This document shows, in pieces, positions 52,516 to 64,000 of a stretch of 64,000 nt of DNA. This DNA comes from Gimesia aquarii. GTDB taxonomy: Bacteria; Planctomycetota; Planctomycetia; Planctomycetales; Planctomycetaceae. How positions within the stretch are numbered: position 1 is the first letter of the stretch; each line of letters begins with the position of its first letter. The stretch lies in the NCBI RefSeq assembly GCF_007748175.1, contig NZ_CP037422.1, positions 1,714,528 to 1,778,527 of the forward strand. The letters are read 5' to 3'. The position numbers and the translations under genes were made by a program. Under the pieces are notes generated by a model. The model did not search any database and had not been told where the DNA came from. It saw nothing but the letters and a program-made list of their open reading frames with translations.

Positions 52516-53868
52516 TCAAATCGACTGACTTCCCGGTGGTGGATTAAGTGGTGAACTCGAATTCGGAGGAACCGGATCATTGGTCAGCATGACTTTATCG
52601 TACAATTCAGGCGGGAGAACGCGAAGCACTGTGAAGAGCCCTTTGACACCATGAAACCAACCCTCGCGCATCCCCTGTGTTTCGCGGCGACTTGTTAGTT
52701 TATGCAAGTCTTCCTTCGTCCACTTCGCGCTGGACATCATCTGTGGATATCCGGGAACATCAAAACCGGGATCATTTTTCTTTTTACGAATGATTGGACC
52801 TACCTGGGAAACCATGTGGTTCATCATATGGTGGAACATGTGACAATGTAGTACCCAGTCGCCCGGATTGTTGGCGATGAATTCCACATCCCGTGACTGT
52901 GCCACACCAAGGATGACAGTATTGCCGGGCACCCAGGCCGAATCAGGTATGCGGCCGCCCTCTGTTCCTGTCACCCAGTAAGTGTGGCCGTGCAGGTGCA
53001 TCGGATGCTGGTGTAACGTGCTAAAGTTCATAAATCGAATACGCACACGTTCCCCTAACTTGCATACTAGAGGTGTTGTATAAGGTCCGCACCGCCCGTT
53101 GATCGTGACAAAGTTCCAGTCCATCGACTGAGTGTCGGGAATCTCTGCGTTAGGCAACATAGAGAATTGTTGGGTGACCAGTACAAAATCACGGTCCACC
53201 ACTGGTTCGTAGGCAACCTTGGGATGAATGACGAAAGGAACAACCATGCCAATGGCTTCCTGCATCGCGACATGGGGATGTAAAAAGCAGCTGCCCTCCT
53301 GGTGCACGTCATATTCATACACAAATGTTTGACCGGGCTTGACTAAATTTTGCGTCACCGCCGGAATGCCATCCATATAAACCGGTAATTCGAGGCCATG
53401 CGAATGCAGCGTGGTTGGTTCCGGCAAATCGTTGCGAAATACAATTCGCACTCGCTCGCCTTGGTACAATTCCAATACAGGCCCTGGAAATTGACCATTA
53501 TATCCATAGGCATCCATCCAGATACCAGGTAACAATTCGCGACGCACAGGAGTTGCCTGCAGGTGAAACTCCCTAACACCATTTACGATTTTACCACTCT
53601 GCTTTTCCAAGTCAGGTGCAGTGACTCTGACAGGCGGGAGCCCTGATTTTCGAAGCCCGGGTACCAGCTTGCCACGATCAGTCGGACTACCAACTGGGCC
53701 ACCTCGACCGGGGTGCGTACGAGGAAATTCTCCACCTTGACCATTGTATTCATCAGAATGAGAGACCCCTTCAGGCTGTTGCCCCATGACCGAACCCGCG
53801 GCGAATAGTCCAGCTGTGGCTGCCGCTCCTTGCACAAGAAAGTCTCTGCGATCTTTGGGAGTGCCCAT
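52516..53868 (-). CDS. Tat-exported multicopper oxidase
   Basis: A laccase-type multicopper oxidase. The N-terminus has a twin-arginine signal (PKDRRDFLVQGAAATAGLFA), so it is exported folded. Copper-binding motifs are visible: HSHGLELPVYM, CFLHPHVAMQEAIGM, HQHPMHLHGHTYWVTG and LHCHMFHHMMNHM, covering the T1 and T2/T3 centres. The start is put at ATG 53868 with AAAGG eight bases upstream; an in-frame ATG at 53883 would add a short extension. It follows the TolC-like gene with about 70 bases between, on the same strand. Together they suggest copper or metal-stress handling (inference). Confidence 0.88.
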   Translation of the reverse strand: MGTPKDRRDFLVQGAAATAGLFAAGSVMGQQPEGVSHSDEYNGQGGEFPRTHPGRGGPVGSPTDRGKLVPGLRKSGLPPVRVTAPDLEKQSGKIVNGVREFHLQATPVRRELLPGIWMDAYGYNGQFPGPVLELYQGERVRIVFRNDLPEPTTLHSHGLELPVYMDGIPAVTQNLVKPGQTFVYEYDVHQEGSCFLHPHVAMQEAIGMVVPFVIHPKVAYEPVVDRDFVLVTQQFSMLPNAEIPDTQSMDWNFVTINGRCGPYTTPLVCKLGERVRIRFMNFSTLHQHPMHLHGHTYWVTGTEGGRIPDSAWVPGNTVILGVAQSRDVEFIANNPGDWVLHCHMFHHMMNHMVSQVGPIIRKKKNDPGFDVPGYPQMMSSAKWTKEDLHKLTSRRETQGMREGWFHGVKGLFTVLRVLPPELYDKVMLTNDPVPPNSSSPLNPPPGSQSI

Positions 53869-53939
53869 AAGAAGGCCTTTCATCAAATAACGAATCGTTG
53901 TGTTGTTGAGAGTTTGATTCTTGTTAATAAAATTTATGG

Positions 53940-55460
53940 TTACCGTGGCTTGGGAACGGAGTTGATATGACCACCGCTCAGCGGTGCTGGAGGTTCGGTT
54001 AACCCACCCGTCAATAACATCCCGCGAATAGAGATATCCGTTTCACGGTACGCTAACAATGCGTCAATGTACTGAGCCTGCAAATCAAGATAGTTTTTTT
54101 GTGCCATGAGCACTTGGGGCCAGGTAGCTCGCCGCATGATGTAACTTTTGTGCAACAGTTCATAAACCTGTTTGGCCTTCGGCAACATCTCACTCTGGTA
54201 AGCCTGAATGTGTTGCCAGTTGGTCTGATAATTTCGATATTGATCAGCAAGCTTGACACTCAAAGTTAACTCCAGCCGCTTCACGTCAGCCCTTGATCGG
54301 TTGAGATCGGCCATTGCCTGGTCAATAGTACCACTGTTATCGTCGAAAATGGGAAGAGGAACACCGGCAGTCACCCCCGCGACAGAATTATCCGTTTCAA
54401 AATTGTGACCAAAATCCACATTGACCAGAATATTGGGAATCGGCTGAACCCGTTCTCGCTCCACCGTGATCTCGTCATGGCAAACTTTTTCCCAAGCTGC
54501 CACCAATTCAGGACTATTTTGCAAAAGATGATGAAACGCTGATTCCCAATCTAACTTTTCTTCAGTTGGTTCAAGAGTACCATGTAACGTGGTACGAGAT
54601 AATTCAGGCGTGCCTACCATCGCAACCAGATTTCGCCACGCTTGCTCAAGATCATTCTCGGCCGTTTGCAAGTTCAGTTGATTCTGTCGCAAGTTGATTT
54701 CTGATTGCAGAAGACCCGGCGTATTTGTTTGTCCGAGATTCAGCATCTCTTTATGAGTTTGGACATTATCTTTTGCATTCGCAACCAGTTGCTTTTGAAC
54801 TTCCACAAGCTGCTGTGCCGCCAGTGTCTTGTAGAAATGCATGCGAACGTCGTTCAACACGCGATCATATTGAGCAGACCGATTCGTTTCTGCAATCCGT
54901 GCTGCCTGCGACCATTTCGCACGACTCAGTTGCAATTTACCGCCCGTCACAAACTCTTGTGAAACGTAACCACCCTGTAATTCGCCAGCAGTGCCTGCAA
55001 TACCAATTTGATCACTGGCATATCCCACTACGGGATTCGGATAGAGACCTGCCTGGTAAGCAGAACCAGAGGCTGCATCAACCTGTGCCATCGCCTGGAC
55101 TAAAGTAGGATTGTTGGACAACGCCATTTCTTCCAGCGTTTCTAACGTCAACCCCATAGATTGTTCGTTGTCAACTTCATCAGGCGCAGGCAGAAGGAGG
55201 GATTCTGATGGCTCAATAGGCGTGGCAAGCTGTTGATCATGGGCTACCTGCCGTGTCATTGACTGGGAAACGTTTTTAGCAGGCTCTGAGAAAGTATCAT
55301 CGTCTAGCGCGAGAACATAGGGAGGCTCTTCTAGCTCTGAAGCGCGGCTCACACCCGGTTTCGCGCTCTTCAGTTTTGAGAGATGACGCTCCGGTCCAGT
55401 GGCACAACCACTCACCATAACCATTGCAATTGATACGGCAATTTGAATAGCTCGTTTCAC
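53940..55460 (-). CDS. TolC-family outer-membrane efflux lipoprotein
   Basis: A 506-residue outer-membrane efflux channel of the OEP/TolC family. The signal peptide ends in a lipobox (VSIAMVMVSGCATGP). Two repeats of the channel-forming OEP domain are visible, for example LAAQQLVEVQKQLVANAKD and RSRADVKRLELTLSVKLADQ. This is closer to NodT/CusC-type lipoproteins than to TolC itself. GGGAGGA lies five bases before the GTG start. It is the first gene in a unit with the multicopper oxidase. No inner-membrane RND pump or membrane-fusion protein is adjacent. Confidence 0.87.
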   Translation of the reverse strand: MKRAIQIAVSIAMVMVSGCATGPERHLSKLKSAKPGVSRASELEEPPYVLALDDDTFSEPAKNVSQSMTRQVAHDQQLATPIEPSESLLLPAPDEVDNEQSMGLTLETLEEMALSNNPTLVQAMAQVDAASGSAYQAGLYPNPVVGYASDQIGIAGTAGELQGGYVSQEFVTGGKLQLSRAKWSQAARIAETNRSAQYDRVLNDVRMHFYKTLAAQQLVEVQKQLVANAKDNVQTHKEMLNLGQTNTPGLLQSEINLRQNQLNLQTAENDLEQAWRNLVAMVGTPELSRTTLHGTLEPTEEKLDWESAFHHLLQNSPELVAAWEKVCHDEITVERERVQPIPNILVNVDFGHNFETDNSVAGVTAGVPLPIFDDNSGTIDQAMADLNRSRADVKRLELTLSVKLADQYRNYQTNWQHIQAYQSEMLPKAKQVYELLHKSYIMRRATWPQVLMAQKNYLDLQAQYIDALLAYRETDISIRGMLLTGGLTEPPAPLSGGHINSVPKPR

Positions 55461-55967
55461 CGTGATCCTCCCTGACAGTTATTCAACGCACAGTCCTTGT
55501 GCGCAGCCCTAACAACTTAGATCGACATCAACGGACTCGGATGTGTCATCGTTTCATTCGAATCTACTCAGCAGAGATGATTTGAACACGCAAAATCGGT
55601 CAAATAAGGACAACCGTTACACTCGAATAAGAAGGCTCTTTCATATGTAAACGTTGAAAGCTGAAACGGCACTTGATCTTAGCCAGTTTTTAAATCGTTC
55701 CTGAAACGAACAACAGGAGCGAAAGCAAAACGAAACTGGGACTTTGAACAGAGTTCAAAACAGGTTGTTTTGCGAAACTTTACTGAATTCCGGTTCAAAA
55801 TGAATATTTGCTTTAGGAAAGATGAAGTCTTTAGGAAAATTCAAAACAACTGACAGATAATGATTGATTTTGAAAGAATTTGATGTTATTTTGCAAATAA
55901 TGATTGAAATGAAGCACTTTGGAAGGCATATTCTTTAGGGAATTATATCGTCTCAGGAGGAGTTTGC
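55461..55967. other. Regulatory region upstream of the BMC operon
   Basis: About 507 bases between divergent units. It holds the inverted repeat TTTGAAC-aga-GTTCAAA at 55743-55759, isolated half-sites (GTTCAAAA near 55793, TTCAAAAC near 55840), three TTTAGG repeats and two ATAATGATTGA repeats nearer the DeoR gene. Promoters for both directions should be here. No gene was seen. Confidence 0.5.
55743..55759. promoter_or_regulatory. Candidate DeoR operator upstream of the BMC operon
   Basis: TTTGAAC and GTTCAAA form a perfect 7-3-7 inverted repeat about 210 bases upstream of the regulator gene, with TTCAAAA-type half-sites at 55793 and 55840. It is a candidate site for the DeoR-family protein; the link is inferred from position. 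Confidence 0.4.
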
Positions 55968-56729
55968 ATGTCAATGTTGCTTGACGAAAGACGGGAAAGC
56001 ATCCTAAAGATTGTTGAAAACAAGGGTTTTGTGTCCCTTGTGGATTTGATGGATTCTGTGGGTGCTTCTGAATCGACCATTCGAAGGGATTTGGAGTATC
56101 TTGACGGAATCGGTCAGATTCGACGGACCCGAGGTGGGGCCGCTTACAGTGGAGAATCATTAGCTACTTTTGAAGATCGGTCTTTTATGTCTTCTGGGCA
56201 AAAAAGGCTAATTGCACAAACTGTGGCCAACATGATCTCTCCCGGAGAAGCAGTGCTTATGGATGGAGGCACAACCACTTTGGAAGTGGCCCGCCAACTG
56301 GCGGGAAAACAACTACAGGTCGTTACGAATTCACTGCCGATTGCCAACTTGTTGGTCAATCAACCCAATATCGATTTGATGTTAATCGGAGGATTTCTGT
56401 TCCCCAAAACAGGCGTCGCACTAGGCAAGACAGCAGTAGAGTCACTCAAGAGTGTCAATGTTCGACGTTTGATTATCAGTGTAGGCGGTATTACAGAAGA
56501 TGGACTTTACAACAGCAACATGCTCTTAGTGGAAACCGAACAACAAATGTTTGCAGCGGCAGAAGAAGTCATTGTTGTCACAGACAGTACCAAATTTGGT
56601 CATTCAGCACTGGCCCATTTATGCCCTCTCAGTGCAGTGGATCACATCGTTGTCGATGATGGTATTTCAGAGAAATGGAAGTCAGTCATCCAGGATGCAG
56701 GGATCGAGTTAACGGTCGTTGAAACATAA
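55968..56729 (+). CDS. DeoR-family transcriptional regulator
   Basis: A 253-residue DeoR-type repressor. The N-terminal HTH (about residues 4-57) reads LDERRESILKIVENKGFVSL then SESTIRRDLEYLDGIGQI and RRTRGGA, the family signature. The C-terminal DeoR sensor domain, related to ribose-5-phosphate isomerase, has MDGGTTTLEVARQLAGK and TNSLPIANLLVNQPNIDLML. It opens the BMC operon and is transcribed in the same direction, so autoregulation is likely. Effector is unknown, but sugar phosphates are typical for the family. AGGAGG lies eight bases before the start. Confidence 0.92.
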   Translation: MSMLLDERRESILKIVENKGFVSLVDLMDSVGASESTIRRDLEYLDGIGQIRRTRGGAAYSGESLATFEDRSFMSSGQKRLIAQTVANMISPGEAVLMDGGTTTLEVARQLAGKQLQVVTNSLPIANLLVNQPNIDLMLIGGFLFPKTGVALGKTAVESLKSVNVRRLIISVGGITEDGLYNSNMLLVETEQQMFAAAEEVIVVTDSTKFGHSALAHLCPLSAVDHIVVDDGISEKWKSVIQDAGIELTVVET

Positions 56730-56771
56730 AACACTCCATACAAAAACAGATAACTTATCCAATTCAAGAAA

Positions 56772-57491
56772 TTGAGACCCGATATTATGACACAACTTAC
56801 AAACTCCATATCACGTTCCCAGATTGAGCAACTGGTTCGTCAGGCCTTAGGACAGCAACTTGGAAGTGCAGCATCGCCTTCTTCTGCACCTAACCCCCTA
56901 GTAGTGAATATTTCCGCTCGACACATACATCTTTCACAAGAACACCTCGAAGTACTGTTTGGCAAAGGTGCTCAGTTAGAAATACAAAAAGACCTCTACC
57001 AGGAAGGCTACTTCGCCGCCACGCAGACCGTCGCCATCGTGGGTCCACGACGTCGCATGATTCCCAATGTTCGGGTCTTGGGCCCTTGCCGTGGTGATAC
57101 CCAAGTGGAACTGGCCTTTACCGACACGATTTCGCTTGGCCTGGAAGTCCCCATTCGCATCAGTGGAGACCTGGAAAACACGCCTGGTTGTGTATTGATG
57201 GGTCCTAAAGGAGTCGTCGAACTGGATAAAGGTGTCATCCGTGCGGCTCGCCACGTACATATGTCGCCCGCAGATTGTGCTCATTATGGTTGTGCCAACG
57301 GCGACAAATTGCACCTGAGGATCGAATCAAATGGCTGTACGACAGTTCTGGAAGACGTCGTCGTACGCGAAAACCCGGAAGTGAAACTCGAAGTACACAT
57401 TGATACTGATGAAGGGAACGCCGTTGATCTGGATCACGCCACTTCAGTCAAACTGTTTGTTCCTGAAGGCTGTAAATGCAAACACAGCTAA
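56772..57491 (+). CDS. pduL: PduL-type phosphate acyltransferase (phosphotransacylase)
   Basis: Converts an acyl-CoA into acyl-phosphate, recycling CoA in the compartment lumen. PduL has no relationship to Pta; it has two beta-barrel domains and zinc bound by His in [20 protein letters not shown] and [13 protein letters not shown], both present. The central part ([20 protein letters not shown]) fits. An amphipathic N-terminal helix ([18 protein letters not shown]) linked by a Ser/Pro-rich spacer is a likely encapsulation peptide. ATG at 56772 or 56787 is possible. It follows the regulator by 42 bases. Confidence 0.94.
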
Positions 57492-57627
57492 TTTTGAAAT
57501 GAGAAGTAAATTCCTCTGACGATAAAGTTAGAAGAATCTCTTTAATATTGTTGAAGAACCGACTTTGGTTCTGATTTAAATGACGAACTGTTTTTTTCTT
57601 AACTATCTCTAAAAGGAGAACTGACTC

Positions 57628-57924
57628 ATGGCGAAAGCAATGGAAGCCCTGGGAATGGTGGAAACAAAAGGGCTCATCAGCCTGATTGAAGCCGCCGATG
57701 CAATGTTGAAATCTGCCAACGTACAAATGGTTGGCTGGGAAAAAGTGGGTAGTGGACTGGTCACTGCATTTGTTGTCGGTGATGTCGCTGCTGTCAAAGC
57801 TGCCGTCGATGCCGGTGCTGCTTCTGCTAGCAAAGTAGGCGAAGTTGTCAGCGTTCAAGTGATTCCACGTCCTCACGAAGAACTTGCCAGCATTCTGCCA
57901 AATAAAACTGCTGCCAAGAAATAA
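57628..57924 (+). CDS. BMC-H hexameric shell protein (1)
   Basis: A 98-residue single-domain BMC-H protein that forms hexameric tiles of the compartment facets. The N-terminus [20 protein letters not shown] and the segment [20 protein letters not shown] are standard, and [20 protein letters not shown] is the pore-side region. The end ([18 protein letters not shown]) is also typical. It is followed by a second, similar shell gene. AAAGGAG lies eight bases before the start. Forty to fifty percent of residues match the second copy by eye. Confidence 0.97.
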
Positions 57925-58062
57925 CATAACGGGTTACCAACATTGACGGCTGAAACTCCTGAATCCGATCGTATCGATGATGAGAACCAGTTGACATTCA
58001 ACTGGTACGAGTCAACAGGTCCTTCAGCCAAACCCATCACAACTAAATATAAAGAGGACAAA

Positions 58063-58332
58063 ATGAGTTCTGAAGCCATTGGTCTTATTGAAACAAAAGG
58101 ATTGGTTGCTCAAATTGAAGCATCCGATGCCATGCTGAAAGCTGCCAACGTGACTCTGGTTGACCAGGTTCAAATTGGTGGTGCTTATGTGACAACAGTC
58201 ATCCAAGGAGATATCGGATCGGTTCGTGCTGCGGTTGACGCTGGTGCTGCCTCTGCTTCTCAAGTAGGAGAACTGGTTGGCGCCCACGTGATAGCACGTC
58301 CTGCCGAAAGTTTATTGTCACACTTTATTTAA
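58063..58332 (+). CDS. BMC-H hexameric shell protein (2)
   Basis: An 89-residue BMC-H protein (AIGLIETKGLVAQIEASDAM, AYVTTVIQGDIGSVRAAVDA, AHVIARPAESLLSHF). The start ATG 58063 has GAGGA just upstream and gives the family length. The frame remains open upstream to a TTG at 57943, which would add a 40-residue acidic extension (about half charged or polar); I prefer the ATG. The extension may be a translated leader or a second form. It is co-directional with and next to the first BMC-H gene. Confidence 0.95.
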   Translation: MSSEAIGLIETKGLVAQIEASDAMLKAANVTLVDQVQIGGAYVTTVIQGDIGSVRAAVDAGAASASQVGELVGAHVIARPAESLLSHFI

Positions 58333-58431
58333 TCAAACGTACTGTTGGTTCTTCCCGGGATTCATAAATTGTGATGAGCGGGGAACAGGATGTTGAAACA
58401 CCAGTCTTTTGTCACAGAATGGATTCCTGCA

Positions 58432-59622
58432 ATGAAAGTTCTAGTTGCTAATTTAGGTTCAACCAGTTTCAAGTATCGCTTGTTCGATATGCCCGCTGAA
58501 GTGCAACTTGCACGAGGTGGCATTGATCGTATCGGCGAAAAGCAAAGTAATTGCTTTGTGGAAATTGGTTCGCATCGGGAAGAAAACACAGACCATGTGC
58601 CCGACCATGCAGCCGCCGTCAACTTATGTTTGTCTCAATTGACCAATTCCGAATGGGGTTGTCTCAGTTCGGCTGACGAAGTTGCGGGAATTGGCTTTAA
58701 AGCGGTCTTTGCCGGAAACTTAAGTGGTGTGCGTCTGGTAGACGAAGAATTACTGACCAAGATGGAGGCGTTAGCAGATATTGCTCCTGCTCACAATCCT
58801 CCGTATGCCCGAGCGATGCGACAACTGCGTCAGGCGTTTCCTGAAATCCCGCTGGTTGCTGCATTGGAAACGGCGTTCCATGAAACCATCCCTGCCGAAA
58901 ATCGTACCTATGCCATTCCACATCAATGGCAGGAAGAATACGAAGTTCAACGTTGGGGCTTTCATGGTGCCAGTCACCGTTATATCGGCACTCGTATGGC
59001 CGAGTTGACTGGCAGAGATGACCTGCGGGTAATCTCCTGCCACTTGGGAGGAAGTAGTTCGTTGTGTGCCATGCGAGGTGGTGTCTCACAAGCCAACAGT
59101 CTGGGAATGAGTCCCCAAACAGGATTGCCTCATAATAATCGTGTAGGTGATTTTGATCCGTTTGCTCTACCAGTTCTAATTAAAGCCACCGGGAAGTCCC
59201 TGGCAGAACTATTGGAAGACCTGTCGAGCAAGGGTGGCTTATTAGGAATGAGTGGATTGAGTGGCGACTGTCGCGATCTGGAAGAAGCGGCAGCCAACGG
59301 TCATTCCAGAGCAGAGTTAGCACTCCGTGTGTTCCACTCTGCCATCCGACATTACCTGGGAGCTTACCTGACGGTACTTGGTGGCGCTGATGCGATTGTT
59401 TTCACGGGTGGAATCGGTGAAAACAGCGTGAGTTTACGAGAGAAAGTGTGTGCCAATCTGGAATGGGCGGGAATTTGTCTGGATGCTCAAAAGAATAAGT
59501 CAGCCTCAGATGAAACGGCCATTCAGGCAGATGACAGTAACGTACAAATCTGGGTGGTTCCGACGAATGAGGAGATTGTCGTCGGACGACAAACAGTGGA
59601 AGTCATCGAAGGGCGTTCGTAA
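58432..59622 (+). CDS. ackA: Acetate/propionate-type kinase of the BMC locus
   Basis: A member of the AckA family that makes ATP from an acyl-phosphate, coupling to PduL. Family motifs: [12 protein letters not shown] at the N-terminus, [31 protein letters not shown] and [16 protein letters not shown] for phosphate binding, and [17 protein letters not shown] near the end. In BMC loci this kinase may act on acetyl-, propionyl- or lactyl-phosphate; the pathway here suggests lactyl-phosphate, by inference. ATG 58432 is preferred over 58390. No encapsulation peptide is obvious at the N-terminus. Confidence 0.92.
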
Positions 59623-59670
59623 CGCCTGAGAGGACTGCCATCCTTTTAGGATTTTTGAGGAGTTGGTTCG

Positions 59671-59985
59671 ATGTTTATAGGACGAATTACCGGTAGCATC
59701 GTTTCGTCGCAGAAAGTTGAGACAATGGTAGGACAGTCGCTGTTCATTGTCGAACCGTTGCGCGTCAACGAAAAAGACCAAAGCGATCTGACTCCCACGG
59801 GACGCTCATTTGTCGTTGTGGACACAGTCGGAGCAGGGCAGGGTGAAGTCGTACTGTGTGTACAAGGGTCATCAGCCCGCTTCACACCAGAGACGAAAAC
59901 ACTGCCCATCGATGCCGCCATTGTTGGCATTGTTGATCAAGTCCACATTGGTTCGAATGAAATTTTTAACTCACAAGAGAAATAA
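59671..59985 (+). CDS. BMC-P pentameric shell protein (1)
   Basis: A 104-residue EutN/CcmL-type vertex protein that forms pentamers capping the shell corners. MFIGRITGSIVSSQKVETM is the usual start, and FVVVDTVGAGQGEVVLCVQG is the conserved core with the glycine-rich loop. DAAIVGIVDQVHI near the end is typical. It lies 48 bases after the kinase gene. Three BMC-P genes are present in this locus, as seen in other planctomycete-type BMCs. Confidence 0.96.
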   Translation: MFIGRITGSIVSSQKVETMVGQSLFIVEPLRVNEKDQSDLTPTGRSFVVVDTVGAGQGEVVLCVQGSSARFTPETKTLPIDAAIVGIVDQVHIGSNEIFNSQEK

Positions 59986-60009
59986 AACGATCTGAATCGG
60001 AAGCATTCC

Positions 60010-60528
60010 ATGTCCAGTCAGTTACCACAAGCCAATTTGCAGCAAATGCGCATGACCATGATGGTCATCTGGATTGCGCTCATCATGGGTGTGGTTACAT
60101 TTGGAATTGTGGTCATTATGATTGGCCTCAAAGGGGCTCCCGGCGAGGATTTACCGGTCATCACGTACGGAGGGATAGGCATAGCAGCATTGATGCTGGT
60201 CCTCAGATTTTTTGTACCGGACATGATGGCCCGTAACCAGTTTAAACAAGCCATGCAAACTGCCAAAGCAGAAGGCAACGAAGATGAAGAAGAGATGCTG
60301 GGAAAATTCTACCAGATATTCTTAACGCGTCTAATAATTGGAATGGCATTACTGGAAGGTGCCGCCTTTCTCAATCTTGTCGCCGTAATGGCAGAAAACC
60401 AGCCACTGGGCTTTGTGCCAGTTGCCATTTTATTACTGGCAATGATTGCCTCAGTACCAACGAAATCAAAACTCGACGGATGGATTCGCAACCAGATGGA
60501 AAACTATAACCTAGAAAACCAAAACTGA
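60010..60528 (+). CDS. Four-helix membrane protein inside the BMC operon
   Basis: A 172-residue protein with four likely membrane helices at roughly residues 15-39 (IWIALIMGVVTFGIVVIM), 48-70, 105-131 (IIGMALLEGAAFLNLVAVMA) and 135-152 (VPVAILLLAMIASVPT), and an acidic loop (AEGNEDEEEMLG). I do not recognise a family. It begins 24 bases after a BMC-P stop and precedes the aldehyde dehydrogenase gene, so it is part of the operon. A transport or membrane-contact role for the organelle is possible but unsupported. Confidence 0.75.
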   Translation: MSSQLPQANLQQMRMTMMVIWIALIMGVVTFGIVVIMIGLKGAPGEDLPVITYGGIGIAALMLVLRFFVPDMMARNQFKQAMQTAKAEGNEDEEEMLGKFYQIFLTRLIIGMALLEGAAFLNLVAVMAENQPLGFVPVAILLLAMIASVPTKSKLDGWIRNQMENYNLENQN

Positions 60529-60599
60529 AATTTTAATAACTGAGACAGTCGTCTTGAGTTTTCAAGCTCAAAACTGATCTGCTCCGGGAGAAACCTATT

Positions 60600-62030
60600 A
60601 TGCAGGCGACAGAAGATGCCATTCGAAGTGTCGTACATGAAGTGTTATCACAACTCAACAATCGAGGCGGTTACGGTTCCGCTTCTTCCACAGCGCATCA
60701 AAATGGTGACTGGGGTGTCTTCAATTGCGTTGACCAGGCTGTCGCTGCCGCGACTGAGGGGCAAAAACAACTGTTGAATGCTTCTCTGGAAGACCGGGCC
60801 AAGGCACTCGAGATTGTGCGTCAGATCTGTGATACCCAGGCCGATGAATTGGGTCGCCTCGAACTCGAAGAGACCAAAATTGGTCGCCTGGATCATAAGA
60901 TCGAAAAACTACACCTCATCAAAGACATACCCGGCATGGAATTTATGAAGACCGAGTCCGTTTCAGGAGATAACGGAGTCAGTCTGACAGAATTTGCCCC
61001 CTTTGGTGTGATCGGCGCGATTACTCCTGTCACGCATTCCCTGCCAACTCTGGCCTGTAACTTCATCAACATGGTTGCCTCAGGTAATACGCTGGTTGTG
61101 AATCCACACCCGGGCGGAGCAAAAGTTGCCTGTGAAGGGGTCCGACGTTTCAACAAAGCCATCTATCAGGCCACCGGTTTGCAAAATCTGGTCACGATTC
61201 TGGAAAATCCAACACTGGAAACGGCAGATGAAATCTTTAACCATCGGGGAATTCCACTCTTATGTGTGACCGGTGGTCCGGGAGTGGCTCGTGCTGCTTT
61301 GGGTGCCAAGAAGCGAGCGATTGTTGCCGGACCTGGTAACCCACCTGTTGTTGTTGACGAAACAGCAGATCTCGACAATGCTGCGAAATCGATCATCATT
61401 GGAGCTGCCTACGATAACAATTTACTCTGCATCGGCGAAAAAGAAGTCTTCGCCGTTGACAGTATCTTTAACGAGTTGATGTCTGCTATGGGACGGCATG
61501 GTGGTTATCAACTCAATTCTCAGCAGGTCGCGCAACTGACTGCTCTGGCATTCTCGCCTCCGAAAGAACCAGGAGGGCACGCTGTTCTCAATCGTGATCT
61601 GATTGGGAAAGACGCCTCGGTCCTGGCCGGCATGATTGGCGTCAGTGTTCCAGCAGGAACAGAGCTTCTTTATGGCGAAACTGATACGAACAACCCCTTC
61701 GTACCGGAAGAGCAAATGATGCCTTTCGTACCATTCGTTCGCTGCCGCAACGCAGACCACGGAATTGAACTGGCCAAGGAATTCGAACACGGATTCCGAC
61801 ACACCAGCATGATTCATTCACGAAACATTGAAGTGATTACGAAGATGGGCCGCATCATGGACACTACACTGTTTGTCCAGAACGGTCCTTGTGGAGCCGC
61901 TTTAGGTAACGGCGGAGAAGGTTACGCTTCATTCAGCATTGCCACTCCCACAGGTGAAGGGGTTACCAACCCACTGACATTCACTCGTTTCCGACGTTCC
62001 ACCACAGTGGGACACTTACGAATTATTTAA
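60600..62030 (+). CDS. CoA-acylating aldehyde dehydrogenase of the BMC (PduP/EutE-like)
   Basis: Oxidises an aldehyde, probably lactaldehyde in this pathway, to the acyl-CoA with NAD+. The first ~20 residues, [17 protein letters not shown], form an amphipathic helix typical of an encapsulation peptide, followed by a Gly/Ser linker. The catalytic Cys is about residue 277 in [23 protein letters not shown]-like [15 protein letters not shown] and [19 protein letters not shown]-like segments ([18 protein letters not shown]) are present. Length 476 is normal for the PduP/EutE group. It lies after the membrane protein gene. Confidence 0.94.
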
Positions 62031-62098
62031 TTGAGCAACGTTAGCAGAATCGAAATTCTGTTAATCAAAATCAAAACTATCTCAGGAATTAAAATCTT

Positions 62099-62356
62099 AT
62101 GTTGACAGGTCGAGTGATCGGACGAGCAACCGCAACATCCAAACATCCCAGTTTGGATGGCTGGCGCTTATTGCTGGTTCAAACCCTCGACATTAAAAGC
62201 AATGCAGAGGGTTTTCCTGAGTTGGTAATCGATGAACTGGGGTGCGGCAAAGGAGATACCGTACTGCTGACTTCTGATGGAGCTGCTGTCAGAGAGATGG
62301 TGGGCGTGAAAAACACCCCCATTCGCTGGGCGACTCTGGGTGTCATCGATCGTTAA
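62099..62356 (+). CDS. BMC-P pentameric shell protein (2)
   Basis: An 85-residue EutN/CcmL-type vertex protein. MLTGRVIGRATATSKHPSLD is the usual start and LVIDELGCGKGDTVLLTSDG is the conserved core. The end (RWATLGVIDR) matches the family. It is separated from the ALDH gene by 68 bases and is followed almost immediately by the RpiB-like gene. Shares more sequence with the third BMC-P (SKHPSLD / RKHPSLD) than with the first. Confidence 0.95.
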   Translation: MLTGRVIGRATATSKHPSLDGWRLLLVQTLDIKSNAEGFPELVIDELGCGKGDTVLLTSDGAAVREMVGVKNTPIRWATLGVIDR

Positions 62357-62390
62357 TGATAAATTTAAGAATAGAGTTAATTTGAAACTG

Positions 62391-63080
62391 ATGCAGTTTT
62401 CTGAAGAGTTGGTTAATCAGGTTGTCGACAATGTTTTGTCGGTCCTTTCCCAGCAGGGCAATGACAGGCAAGCAACGGGGAATGTACCACCTGTTTCCAC
62501 ACCTGACTCTTCAATGGTTTTGACCGAGAAAGTCATCACTGCCGATTTATTAGCAGAAAAGACAAAAGGACAAACTGCCATTGGTATTGCAGCAGGATCA
62601 CTTTTGACTCCTTCTGCGAAAGATTATCTGCGCGAGTTTCAAGTGAGTGTCCATCGTCCCACATCGGTCGTGTCTCCCTCAAAAGGGCAGGGCGCACCAT
62701 GGCGGGCCATTGTGCTCTCTCATTCAGTAGCCGTTGAGAATGCACTGGCAAAAATCGAACAACAGACCAATTCACGTTGGTCACAGGAGTTGAGTTCTTC
62801 ACTGGAAGAAGCCGTTAAGGAGACAATCAGCAGTATTTGTCGAGCCGATGCAACAGGCGTGGTTCTGTTTGCCGAAGCCGCGGAAAAAGCAGCCTGTCTG
62901 GCGAATCGAAATCAGAAAATTCGAGCTGCCGCCGTTCAGGATGTGAACCATTTACGAACCGTCATCACGCAAATGAACCCAAATCTGATTTGTGTGAATC
63001 CGGAACAGAAATCGTTTATCGAGCTGAGAAATTTAGTTAAGACGTTTGTCAATGCAGGCAATCCCACTGAGGGAAGTTAA
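62391..63080 (+). CDS. Encapsulation-tagged RpiB-like protein of the BMC locus
   Basis: A 229-residue protein with an N-terminal amphipathic helix (FSEELVNQVVDNVLSVLSQQ) and a disordered linker rich in Pro and Ser, as in other cargo. Residues ~50-90 (ITADLLAEKTKGQTAIGIAA then LTPSAKDYLREFQVSVHRPT) resemble a small domain also seen in BMC-linked proteins. The C-terminal half (GVVLFAEAAEKAACLANRNQ, NQKIRAAAVQDVNHLRTVIT, PNLICVNPE) resembles the RpiB/LacAB sugar-phosphate isomerase core, without a clear catalytic Cys/His pair. ATG 62391 starts the tag directly. Function is unknown; isomerase-like or scaffold roles are inference. Confidence 0.8.
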   Translation: MQFSEELVNQVVDNVLSVLSQQGNDRQATGNVPPVSTPDSSMVLTEKVITADLLAEKTKGQTAIGIAAGSLLTPSAKDYLREFQVSVHRPTSVVSPSKGQGAPWRAIVLSHSVAVENALAKIEQQTNSRWSQELSSSLEEAVKETISSICRADATGVVLFAEAAEKAACLANRNQKIRAAAVQDVNHLRTVITQMNPNLICVNPEQKSFIELRNLVKTFVNAGNPTEGS

Positions 63081-63100
63081 CCTGCTAAAGGAAATGAACC

Positions 63101-63382
63101 ATGAAAATCGCAGAAGTGATCGGAAAAGTGACACTTTCACGCAAGCATCCCAGTCTGGATGGTGCCCGATGGCTGATTGCGACTCCTTTAAAGACGGATG
63201 AACTCAACTCAAATAAGAAAAAGAAAACAGAACCTTTTGTTATTTACGATGAGTTAGGGGCTTCCTCTGGCAGCCAGATTGCTGTGAGCGAAGGTGCAGA
63301 AGCAGCGGCTCCTTTTCATCCTGATGTAAAACCGATTGACGCATATGTGTCAGCGATTTTGGATCAGATCGAAGTTTATTAA
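63101..63382 (+). CDS. BMC-P pentameric shell protein (3)
   Basis: A 93-residue EutN/CcmL-type vertex protein with the start MKIAEVIGKVTLSRKHPSLD, a Lys-rich loop (NSNKKKKTE) and the core FVIYDELGASSGSQIAVSEG. The end (AYVSAILDQIEVY) is typical. It is 20 bases downstream of the RpiB-like gene and 56 bases upstream of the aldolase gene. The lysine-rich insertion makes it longer than the second BMC-P. Confidence 0.95.
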   Translation: MKIAEVIGKVTLSRKHPSLDGARWLIATPLKTDELNSNKKKKTEPFVIYDELGASSGSQIAVSEGAEAAAPFHPDVKPIDAYVSAILDQIEVY

Positions 63383-63438
63383 TCGAATCACTATTACTGA
63401 AACACACATTTTTTATTTAACGTTTGGAGCCTTAGACA

Positions 63439-64000
63439 ATGTCAAATCAATGGAACAGTGGAATTCACGACCGAAACCTGAAAGAAGAAATCTGCGAAAT
63501 CGGACGTCGCGTTTATAATAAAGGATTTGCTGCAGCCAATGATGGAAACATCTCCATACGTGTCGGAGAAAATGAAGTCCTCTGTTCGCCGACCATGATC
63601 TGCAAAGGTTTCATGAAACCGGAAGATATTTGTGCCGTCGATTTAGATGGAAACCAAATTGCGGGAACACGTAAGCGAACCAGCGAAATTCTGTTACACC
63701 TGGCAATCATGAAAGAACGCCCTGACGTCAAAGCCGTTGTGCACTGTCACCCACCTCACGCGACGGCATTCGCTGTGGCTCGCGAACCGATTCCACAATG
63801 TGTACTTCCCGAAGTCGAAGTCTTCATGGGTGAAGTTCCGATGGCTCCTTATGAAACACCCGGCGGTCAGAAATTTGCCGACACAGTCGTACCGTTCCTC
63901 AAAGGGGGCACGAACACAATTATTCTGACCGGACACGGAACCGTCACTTTTGGTAAATCTCTGGAAGATGCTTACTGGAAAACCGAAATCCTGGACGCTT
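63439..64000 (+). CDS. Class II aldolase, cut by window edge
   Basis: The signature enzyme of this BMC type: a zinc-dependent class II aldolase of the fuculose-/rhamnulose-1-phosphate aldolase family, which gives lactaldehyde and DHAP. The first 187 codons are visible. ANDGNISIRVGENEVLCSP is the family phosphate-binding stretch. VVHCHPPHATAFAVA carries two zinc-binding histidines, with the third probably His in ILTGHGTVTFG. No N-terminal encapsulation helix is seen; one could be at the missing C-terminus. The fucose versus rhamnose substrate cannot be told from this part. Confidence 0.92.
   Translation, partial: MSNQWNSGIHDRNLKEEICEIGRRVYNKGFAAANDGNISIRVGENEVLCSPTMICKGFMKPEDICAVDLDGNQIAGTRKRTSEILLHLAIMKERPDVKAVVHCHPPHATAFAVAREPIPQCVLPEVEVFMGEVPMAPYETPGGQKFADTVVPFLKGGTNTIILTGHGTVTFGKSLEDAYWKTEILDA

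Follow-up and report, generated by a model that had tools for sequence, protein, structure and literature searches.

A predicted class I aldolase with a conserved C-terminal tail, encoded behind pvmO in a planctomycete PVM-type microcompartment operon

Introduction

Does the bacterial microcompartment (BMC) operon of Gimesia aquarii merely repeat an organelle already described, or does it hold a further part? The operon begins at position 55968 of the window, by which we mean the whole 64,000-nucleotide stretch analysed here (G000:C1:1714528-1778527 of a 7.2-Mb single-contig genome, to which all whole-genome searches refer), and runs out of its right end; the part beyond is covered by the stretch L003, in which a position equals the window position minus 55000. 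The locus is almost certainly an operon of the Planctomycetes/Verrucomicrobia microcompartment (PVM) type and, in itself, a further example of that described type. What is new is gene P, which encodes 405 amino acids matching no Pfam family and lies on the + strand at L003:10395-11612, right of the window and 78 bp after pvmO. Starting from gene content and order, conservation, co-occurrence, the predicted fold and the C-terminal tail, we read the whole as a complete PVM metabolosome in which P would be an organelle-tied class I ketose-1-phosphate aldolase, and we give this reading a probability of about 0.6. An earlier, sequence-only reading of the window had pointed to the unassigned genes of the run as the best place to look for new biology; this was good advice, but the most telling gene, P, lies outside the window. 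It had also placed the right part of the operon beyond the window, where we indeed found the end of the class II aldolase gene, a lactate/malate dehydrogenase (LDH/MDH)-type gene and P.

P accompanies the shell genes, also where the two are unlinked

P was sampled in 59 relatives, a 294-genome sample of the phylum, 80 named loci and a plasmid collection. It was found in 40 of the 59 relatives and in 24 of the 294 phylum genomes, four of which matched below 25 bits and were dropped, leaving 20 strong matches. The shell family EutN was present in all 40 P-positive relatives versus 11 of the 19 lacking P, counts that are inflated by shared ancestry because six of the eight EutN-negative relatives come from one family. 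Among the phylum genomes, EutN was present in 19 of the 20 with a strong P match versus 75 of the 274 others (one of the 75 below the family cut-off).

In the unlinked cases this co-occurrence is not explained by linkage. P lies at least 1 Mb from the shell genes in G020, G330 and G045, and in 30 of the 80 named loci no shell gene was seen in the flank that was fetched. Thirteen of these 30 have pvmN or pvmO beside P, and for the other 17 EutN was detected in 16 of 16 genomes tested, including metagenome-assembled genomes (MAGs) named Sumerlaeota, KSB1 and Acidobacteria (L087 was left out of this test, and three loci have less than 1.5 kb of upstream flank). A PvmN-like aldolase was found in all six genomes asked. 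Upstream flank of at least 1.5 kb was available for 68 named loci (12 of the 80 were not judged); in 53 of these, P was located within 3 kb downstream of pvmO (44 loci), pvmN (7) or pvmM (2), and in the remaining 15 it was not. Around 13 P genes whose fetched stretch holds no shell gene, a few gene families recur in 2-5 loci, and no obvious pathway gene was seen among these, gene names not having been searched. Taken as a whole, we consider it rather likely that P is associated with the organelle.

Two further observations concern the MAGs. In G352 and G353, the genomes of L135 and L147 (named Sumerlaeota), three BMC-P genes are spread over as many contigs, in the manner of a scattered locus, and P and a PvmN-like aldolase are still present. 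Two P copies occur on different contigs of one MAG in the pairs L112 and L131, and L127 and L130.

P is predicted to fold and work like a class I aldolase

An AlphaFold2 model was made on the L076 copy of P, which is 89% identical. With a mean predicted local distance difference test score (pLDDT) of 84.2, it shows a barrel, then a low-confidence linker and a confident helix at residues 388-403. The top Foldseek matches were LsrF, the tagatose-bisphosphate aldolase LacD, ADH synthase and archaeal class I fructose-bisphosphate (FBP) aldolase, and several of the closest solved entries are complexes with dihydroxyacetone phosphate (DHAP) or FBP. P has the same predicted barrel fold as these enzymes and may resemble them in a candidate Schiff-base Lys and in GG...GR phosphate loops, while its identity to them in structural alignments is 11-18% and it carries an extra linker and tail. 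Lys228, Glu188, Gly253-Gly254, Gly257-Thr-Thr and Gly280-Arg281 are invariant in the P alignments. No aldolase Pfam family was matched by P and NCBIfam matches fell far below cut-off, PRK07226 being weakly matched in 60 of 61 P members; a phmmer search of PDB sequences gave no match for P, and profile A2 gave chance-like matches only. On this structural evidence, P is predicted to work like a class I aldolase, outside any named family.

A barrel of this kind might also be catalytically silent and serve the organelle as a scaffold or sensor, and PvmL, another product of the operon, looks like such a case, with its RpiB-like fold and altered loop. In P, however, neither Lys228 and Glu188 nor the positions of the phosphate loops vary, whether the copy is a BMC one or not, and we hold a silent P to be very improbable.

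Relatives without an organelle point to a ketose-1-phosphate

In the plasmid collection, 47 records contain P homologues, on proteobacterial plasmids and with 40-51% identity; 40 of them are from genera of the Rhizobiaceae. The ten genera listed with plasmid-borne BMC-H do not include Rhizobiaceae, ten further groups standing outside that listing. Coverage of the query is 80% or more in 46 of the 47 homologues, and in no case does the match extend past residue 354. A sugar or dihydroxyacetone kinase is encoded within the 7-9 kb flanks of 10 of the 11 plasmid loci fetched: a member of the carbohydrate-kinase or PfkB family in L201, L202, L204, L205 and L211, an FGGY kinase in L201, L203, L206, L207 and L210, and DhaK/DhaL in L208, with no kinase in L209. 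A sugar ABC transporter accompanies P in nine of the 11 and a glycerol-3-phosphate dehydrogenase/oxidase in three. The planctomycete genome G184 (91% complete, no EutN match) contains a tail-less P on one strand with a D-lyxose isomerase, a prokaryotic ketohexokinase and a GH38 mannosidase, P coming after the ketohexokinase. This order of isomerase, ketose kinase and P fits a ketose-1-phosphate aldolase and is the strongest clue to the reaction. We think it likely that P is a ketose-phosphate aldolase; acting through a Schiff base, it would release DHAP and an aldehyde from a ketose-1-phosphate and, if tied to the organelle, be a second aldehyde-producing enzyme there.

The same folds leave room for another substrate or direction: P might be an FBP aldolase joining glyceraldehyde-3-phosphate to the DHAP that PvmN releases, or a thiolase of the LsrF kind. 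FBP aldolase and LsrF are indeed among the closest folds, and handling of DHAP would suit a DHAP-producing pathway. The non-BMC relatives in sugar import and kinase loci, and the G184 copy behind a ketohexokinase, point instead to ketose-1-phosphate cleavage, which makes these other activities decidedly improbable.

A conserved tail follows a variable linker

Five aligned plasmid homologues of P stop right after the barrel, without linker or tail. In P itself, the linker (residues 343-380) has a mean entropy of 2.64 bits and the tail (residues 381-405) one of 1.60 bits, with M386, Y394, R398 and G404 near-fixed in the latter. Of the 79 complete named copies, 71 have a strict tail motif, which was derived from these same sequences; 0.04% of shuffled ends have it too. 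The other eight copies comprise five with visibly related tails, two with diverged ends and one (L134) with no tail. Like most BMC-associated copies, P ends in a short conserved helix after a variable linker, as encapsulation peptides do. No second protein of the genome was found to carry the tail (best other match, E 1.04). We propose that linker and helix would tie P to the organelle in BMC-bearing lineages, and we see an even chance that the tail is what targets P there. As a side observation, the linker contains CxC or CxCH clusters, possibly metal-binding, in L046, L047, L048, L049, L051, L053, L054 and L056.

Several observations, beside the family bias noted above, weigh against an organelle-tied aldolase. 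By its sequence the tail does not qualify as a classical encapsulation peptide: its hydrophobic moment is no more than ordinary, being attained by 32% of shuffles, and its conserved residues show no significant bias to one face (15%). In the hydrophobic-moment test, PvmN, PvmJ and PvmL have termini that stand out, and the N-terminus of PvmB does not. The tail-less P of L134 sits beside shell genes, and tail-less copies also occur in the EutN-positive genomes G143 (L067) and G026 (L058). A P match is missing in some BMC-positive members of the own family, such as G321 and G029, and a candidate operator of the operon, built of TGAnnG repeats, was found before none of nine unlinked P genes. As to the chemistry, Lys228 of P aligns with E. 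coli LsrF Lys203, which we take to be the Schiff-base residue of LsrF, in a weak profile match (probability 15%, E 0.0017), and profile comparisons of P with YihT and FbaB gave no significant match. The search match for the G143 copy contains an internal TAG.

Some of these points would suit a known PVM organelle accompanied by a cytosolic P that acts on the same sugars and uses its tail for oligomerisation or some other contact: the tail lacks the classical amphipathic signature, P is often away from the shell genes with no operator seen there, and some BMC-positive genomes have a tail-less P. Against a cytosolic P stand the finding that P and the shell closely co-occur, also where the two are unlinked, and the absence of linker and tail from the five plasmid homologues and from G184, both of which fit an organelle-tied role. 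We judge a cytosolic P unlikely.

The organelle-tied aldolase can be taken one step further. P would then be a second signature enzyme, a so far uncatalogued class I ketose-1-phosphate aldolase that was recruited from cytosolic kinase-aldolase operons for sugars and is directed to the organelle by an added C-terminal peptide of a kind other than the encapsulation peptides known; this we put forward tentatively, at somewhat less than even odds. If it is true, two aldolases of different mechanism could handle several ketose-1-phosphates (rhamnulose-, fuculose-, perhaps fructose- or pentulose-1-phosphate), and the tail, as a targeting peptide of a new type, could be used to load shells with enzymes. 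A second organelle aldolase would also mean that the one-aldolase scheme is incomplete and that the substrate range may be wider. P is readily approachable: it is one enzyme, probably soluble, and its tail-less relatives are clear.

The operon is of the PVM type

Gene calls rest on Pfam matches above curated cut-offs unless noted otherwise. All named genes are open and on the + strand, and the gaps in the run from 55968 measure 20-138 bp. The run starts with pvmA (55968-56729, 253 amino acids; PF00455 157.5 bits, PF08220 52.1 bits), encoding a DeoR-family regulator, and pvmB (56787-57491, 234 amino acids; PF06130 236.1 bits, PRK15070 above cut-off), encoding a PduL-type phosphotransacylase. 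Two BMC-H genes follow, at 57628-57924 (98 amino acids; PF00936 95.5 bits) and 58063-58332 (89 amino acids; PF00936 90.4 bits), and then pvmG of the acetate-kinase family (58432-59622, 396 amino acids; PF00871 338 bits), the first BMC-P gene (59671-59985, 104 amino acids; PF03319 100 bits) and pvmI (60010-60528), for a small membrane protein of 172 amino acids with no Pfam match above cut-off. The CoA-acylating aldehyde dehydrogenase PvmJ (60600-62030, 476 amino acids; PF00171 88.7 bits, PRK15398 583 bits against a cut-off of 403) has an N-terminus like an encapsulation peptide. Behind it lie the second BMC-P gene (62099-62356, 85 amino acids; PF03319 84.1 bits), pvmL (62391-63080, 229 amino acids) and the third BMC-P gene (63101-63382, 93 amino acids; PF03319 73.5 bits). 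The class II aldolase gene pvmN (63439-64000, on to L003:9329, 296 amino acids; PF00596 171.4 bits, cut-off 22.2), whose product has a C-terminus like an encapsulation peptide, crosses the end of the window, and right of it pvmO (L003:9390-10316; PF00056/PF02866 131.6/106.5 bits) encodes the LDH/MDH-type enzyme. PvmO has a C-terminal extension of 40-60 amino acids with a Gly-rich, RVT(I/V/M)SG-like end in L046, L047, L048, L050, L051, L053 and L056; it is absent in the own family and is perhaps another targeting tail.

The sequence-only reading had listed two BMC-H and three BMC-P genes with PduL, a CoA-acylating aldehyde dehydrogenase, an acyl kinase and a class II aldolase, and had seen no B12 diol dehydratase or ethanolamine lyase. 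This inventory holds. The shell genes of the locus, all with matches above cut-off, are the only ones of the genome (exactly two BMC-H and three BMC-P), the four enzymes have Pfam or NCBIfam matches, and no dehydratase or ammonia-lyase was found among the genes of the run, no genome-wide search for these having been made. Aldehyde dehydrogenase, PduL, acetate kinase, DeoR regulator and LDH/MDH-type dehydrogenase are all above their Pfam cut-offs. The letters D, E, H, I, K, L, M and N were assigned by order, and we take D and E to be BMC-H, H, K and M to be BMC-P, N to be the aldolase and I and L to be two unassigned genes.

Gene content and order agree with the pvmABDEGHIJKLMNO cluster, which bears out the proposed fucose/rhamnose-type PVM assignment. 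In Planctopirus limnophila, whose cluster is so written in PMC11958385, PvmA is the DeoR regulator and expression is induced by rhamnose; a figure legend in PMC6620236 gives PvmB, G, J and O as phosphotransacylase, kinase, aldehyde dehydrogenase and alcohol dehydrogenase. Genes A to O stand in the same order in both organisms, with the DeoR regulator first and the LDH-type enzyme last, whereas here P follows pvmO and is absent from the cluster string of PMC11958385. Among relatives the order is the same, with I, L and O coming and going. According to the text of PMC4207490 on other loci, GRM5 and the PVM-like BMCs of Firmicutes also have a class II aldolase and a DeoR regulator, while GRM5 has a glycyl-radical diol dehydratase, which this run lacks, and a different gene order. 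The sugar-phosphate-utilising (SPU) BMCs treated there combine a class I aldolase (DeoC), the aldehyde source, with RpiB, 48-53% identical to the isomerase; a class I aldolase and an RpiB-like protein are likewise predicted here. In contrast to SPU BMCs, the present locus also has a class II aldolase; its RpiB-like protein, PvmL, is diverged, and P is without a Pfam match.

Rhamnose is the better supported input

The earlier reading had named fucose or rhamnose as the sugar input. The rhamnose half stands: the genome encodes RhaA (C1:4533610, PF06134 703.3 bits) and a rhamnulokinase (G000:C1:5141197, TIGR02627 539.4 bits, cut-off 527.95), both far from the locus. The genome has no PF02952 match for a FucI-type isomerase, and fucose was rejected as a supported input for lack of it; a RhaI-type isomerase was likewise not matched (TIGR02629). 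Since RhaA and rhamnulokinase are present and a FucI-type match is absent, rhamnose is the better supported input as judged from these matches, and fucose would need another isomerase. Of the LDH and sugar kinase genes expected to the right of the window, the former was found; the latter is not in the operon, the rhamnulokinase being the distant one.

In the scheme published for PVM-type BMCs, which we infer here from gene content, rhamnose (perhaps fucose) would be isomerised and phosphorylated in the cytosol, and PvmN would cleave the ketose-1-phosphate, giving DHAP and L-lactaldehyde. PvmJ, PvmB and PvmG would then convert lactaldehyde by way of lactyl-CoA and lactyl-phosphate to lactate, with a gain of ATP, PvmO would reduce aldehyde and recycle NAD, and the shell of BMC-H and BMC-P proteins would hold the toxic aldehyde inside. 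The turnover of deoxy-sugars from algae and plants by planctomycetes and their relatives is linked to organelles of this type. PvmN scores higher with FucA-type models (122.5 bits) than with RhaD-type ones (60.3 bits), none above cut-off, while the genome can make rhamnulose-1-phosphate; this makes rhamnulose-1-phosphate an attractive substrate for P, and a wider substrate range is equally possible.

PvmL and PvmI

PvmL combines an N-terminal helix like an encapsulation peptide with an RpiB/LacAB-like fold (PF02502 E 0.00037, under cut-off). Its start is most likely the ATG at 62391 rather than the GTG at 62340 because orthologues start there. The AlphaFold2 model of PvmL (mean pLDDT 84.0) gave RpiB/LacAB as top Foldseek matches, and a PDB sequence search gave chance-like matches only. 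Judged by eye, PvmL lacks what we take to be the cysteine loop of the isomerase, but it has a different Cys and Asn, invariant in 23 of 23 aligned copies; its active-site loop is altered. Several loci of other families gave no PvmL match. With low confidence, we suggest a lumen accessory or an altered sugar-phosphate binder. PvmI has homologues in some members of the own family; by tblastn, none of the loci fetched from other families gave a match.

Regulation and boundaries of the unit

Three TGAnnG repeats with a 10-bp period lie at 55851-55876 (+ strand), 92-117 bp upstream of pvmA, and are the sole such triple in the window (0.00 expected). A double site precedes pvmA in 11 of 25 loci against 0.02 expected, a descriptive count, since the pattern was drawn from these same sequences and several loci are close kin. 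We propose the repeats as a candidate operator of the DeoR-type PvmA; none was found in the fetched rhaA/rhaB stretches.

Promoter-like matches (15 versus 15.9 expected) and terminator-like matches (16 versus 13.3) are at chance level. The gap before pvmN contains neither, and the aldolase as a separate unit, the case that the sequence-only reading had said would speak against it, was rejected on that ground. A terminator-like hairpin (10 pairs, T-rich tail) at 59625-59650, in the gap between ackA and pvmH, could act as a partial terminator and lower expression of the right half; a 9-of-12 promoter-like match precedes ackA. The gene after P encodes a YfhO-like membrane protein that was matched in four own-genus stretches only (L003, L035, L036 and L037), and a 10-of-12 promoter-like match stands before it; for these two reasons the unit is taken to end at P. 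Left of the operon, at 52516-55460 on the - strand, a probable multicopper oxidase and a TolC-like outer-membrane protein are encoded, as read from their translations without a family search.

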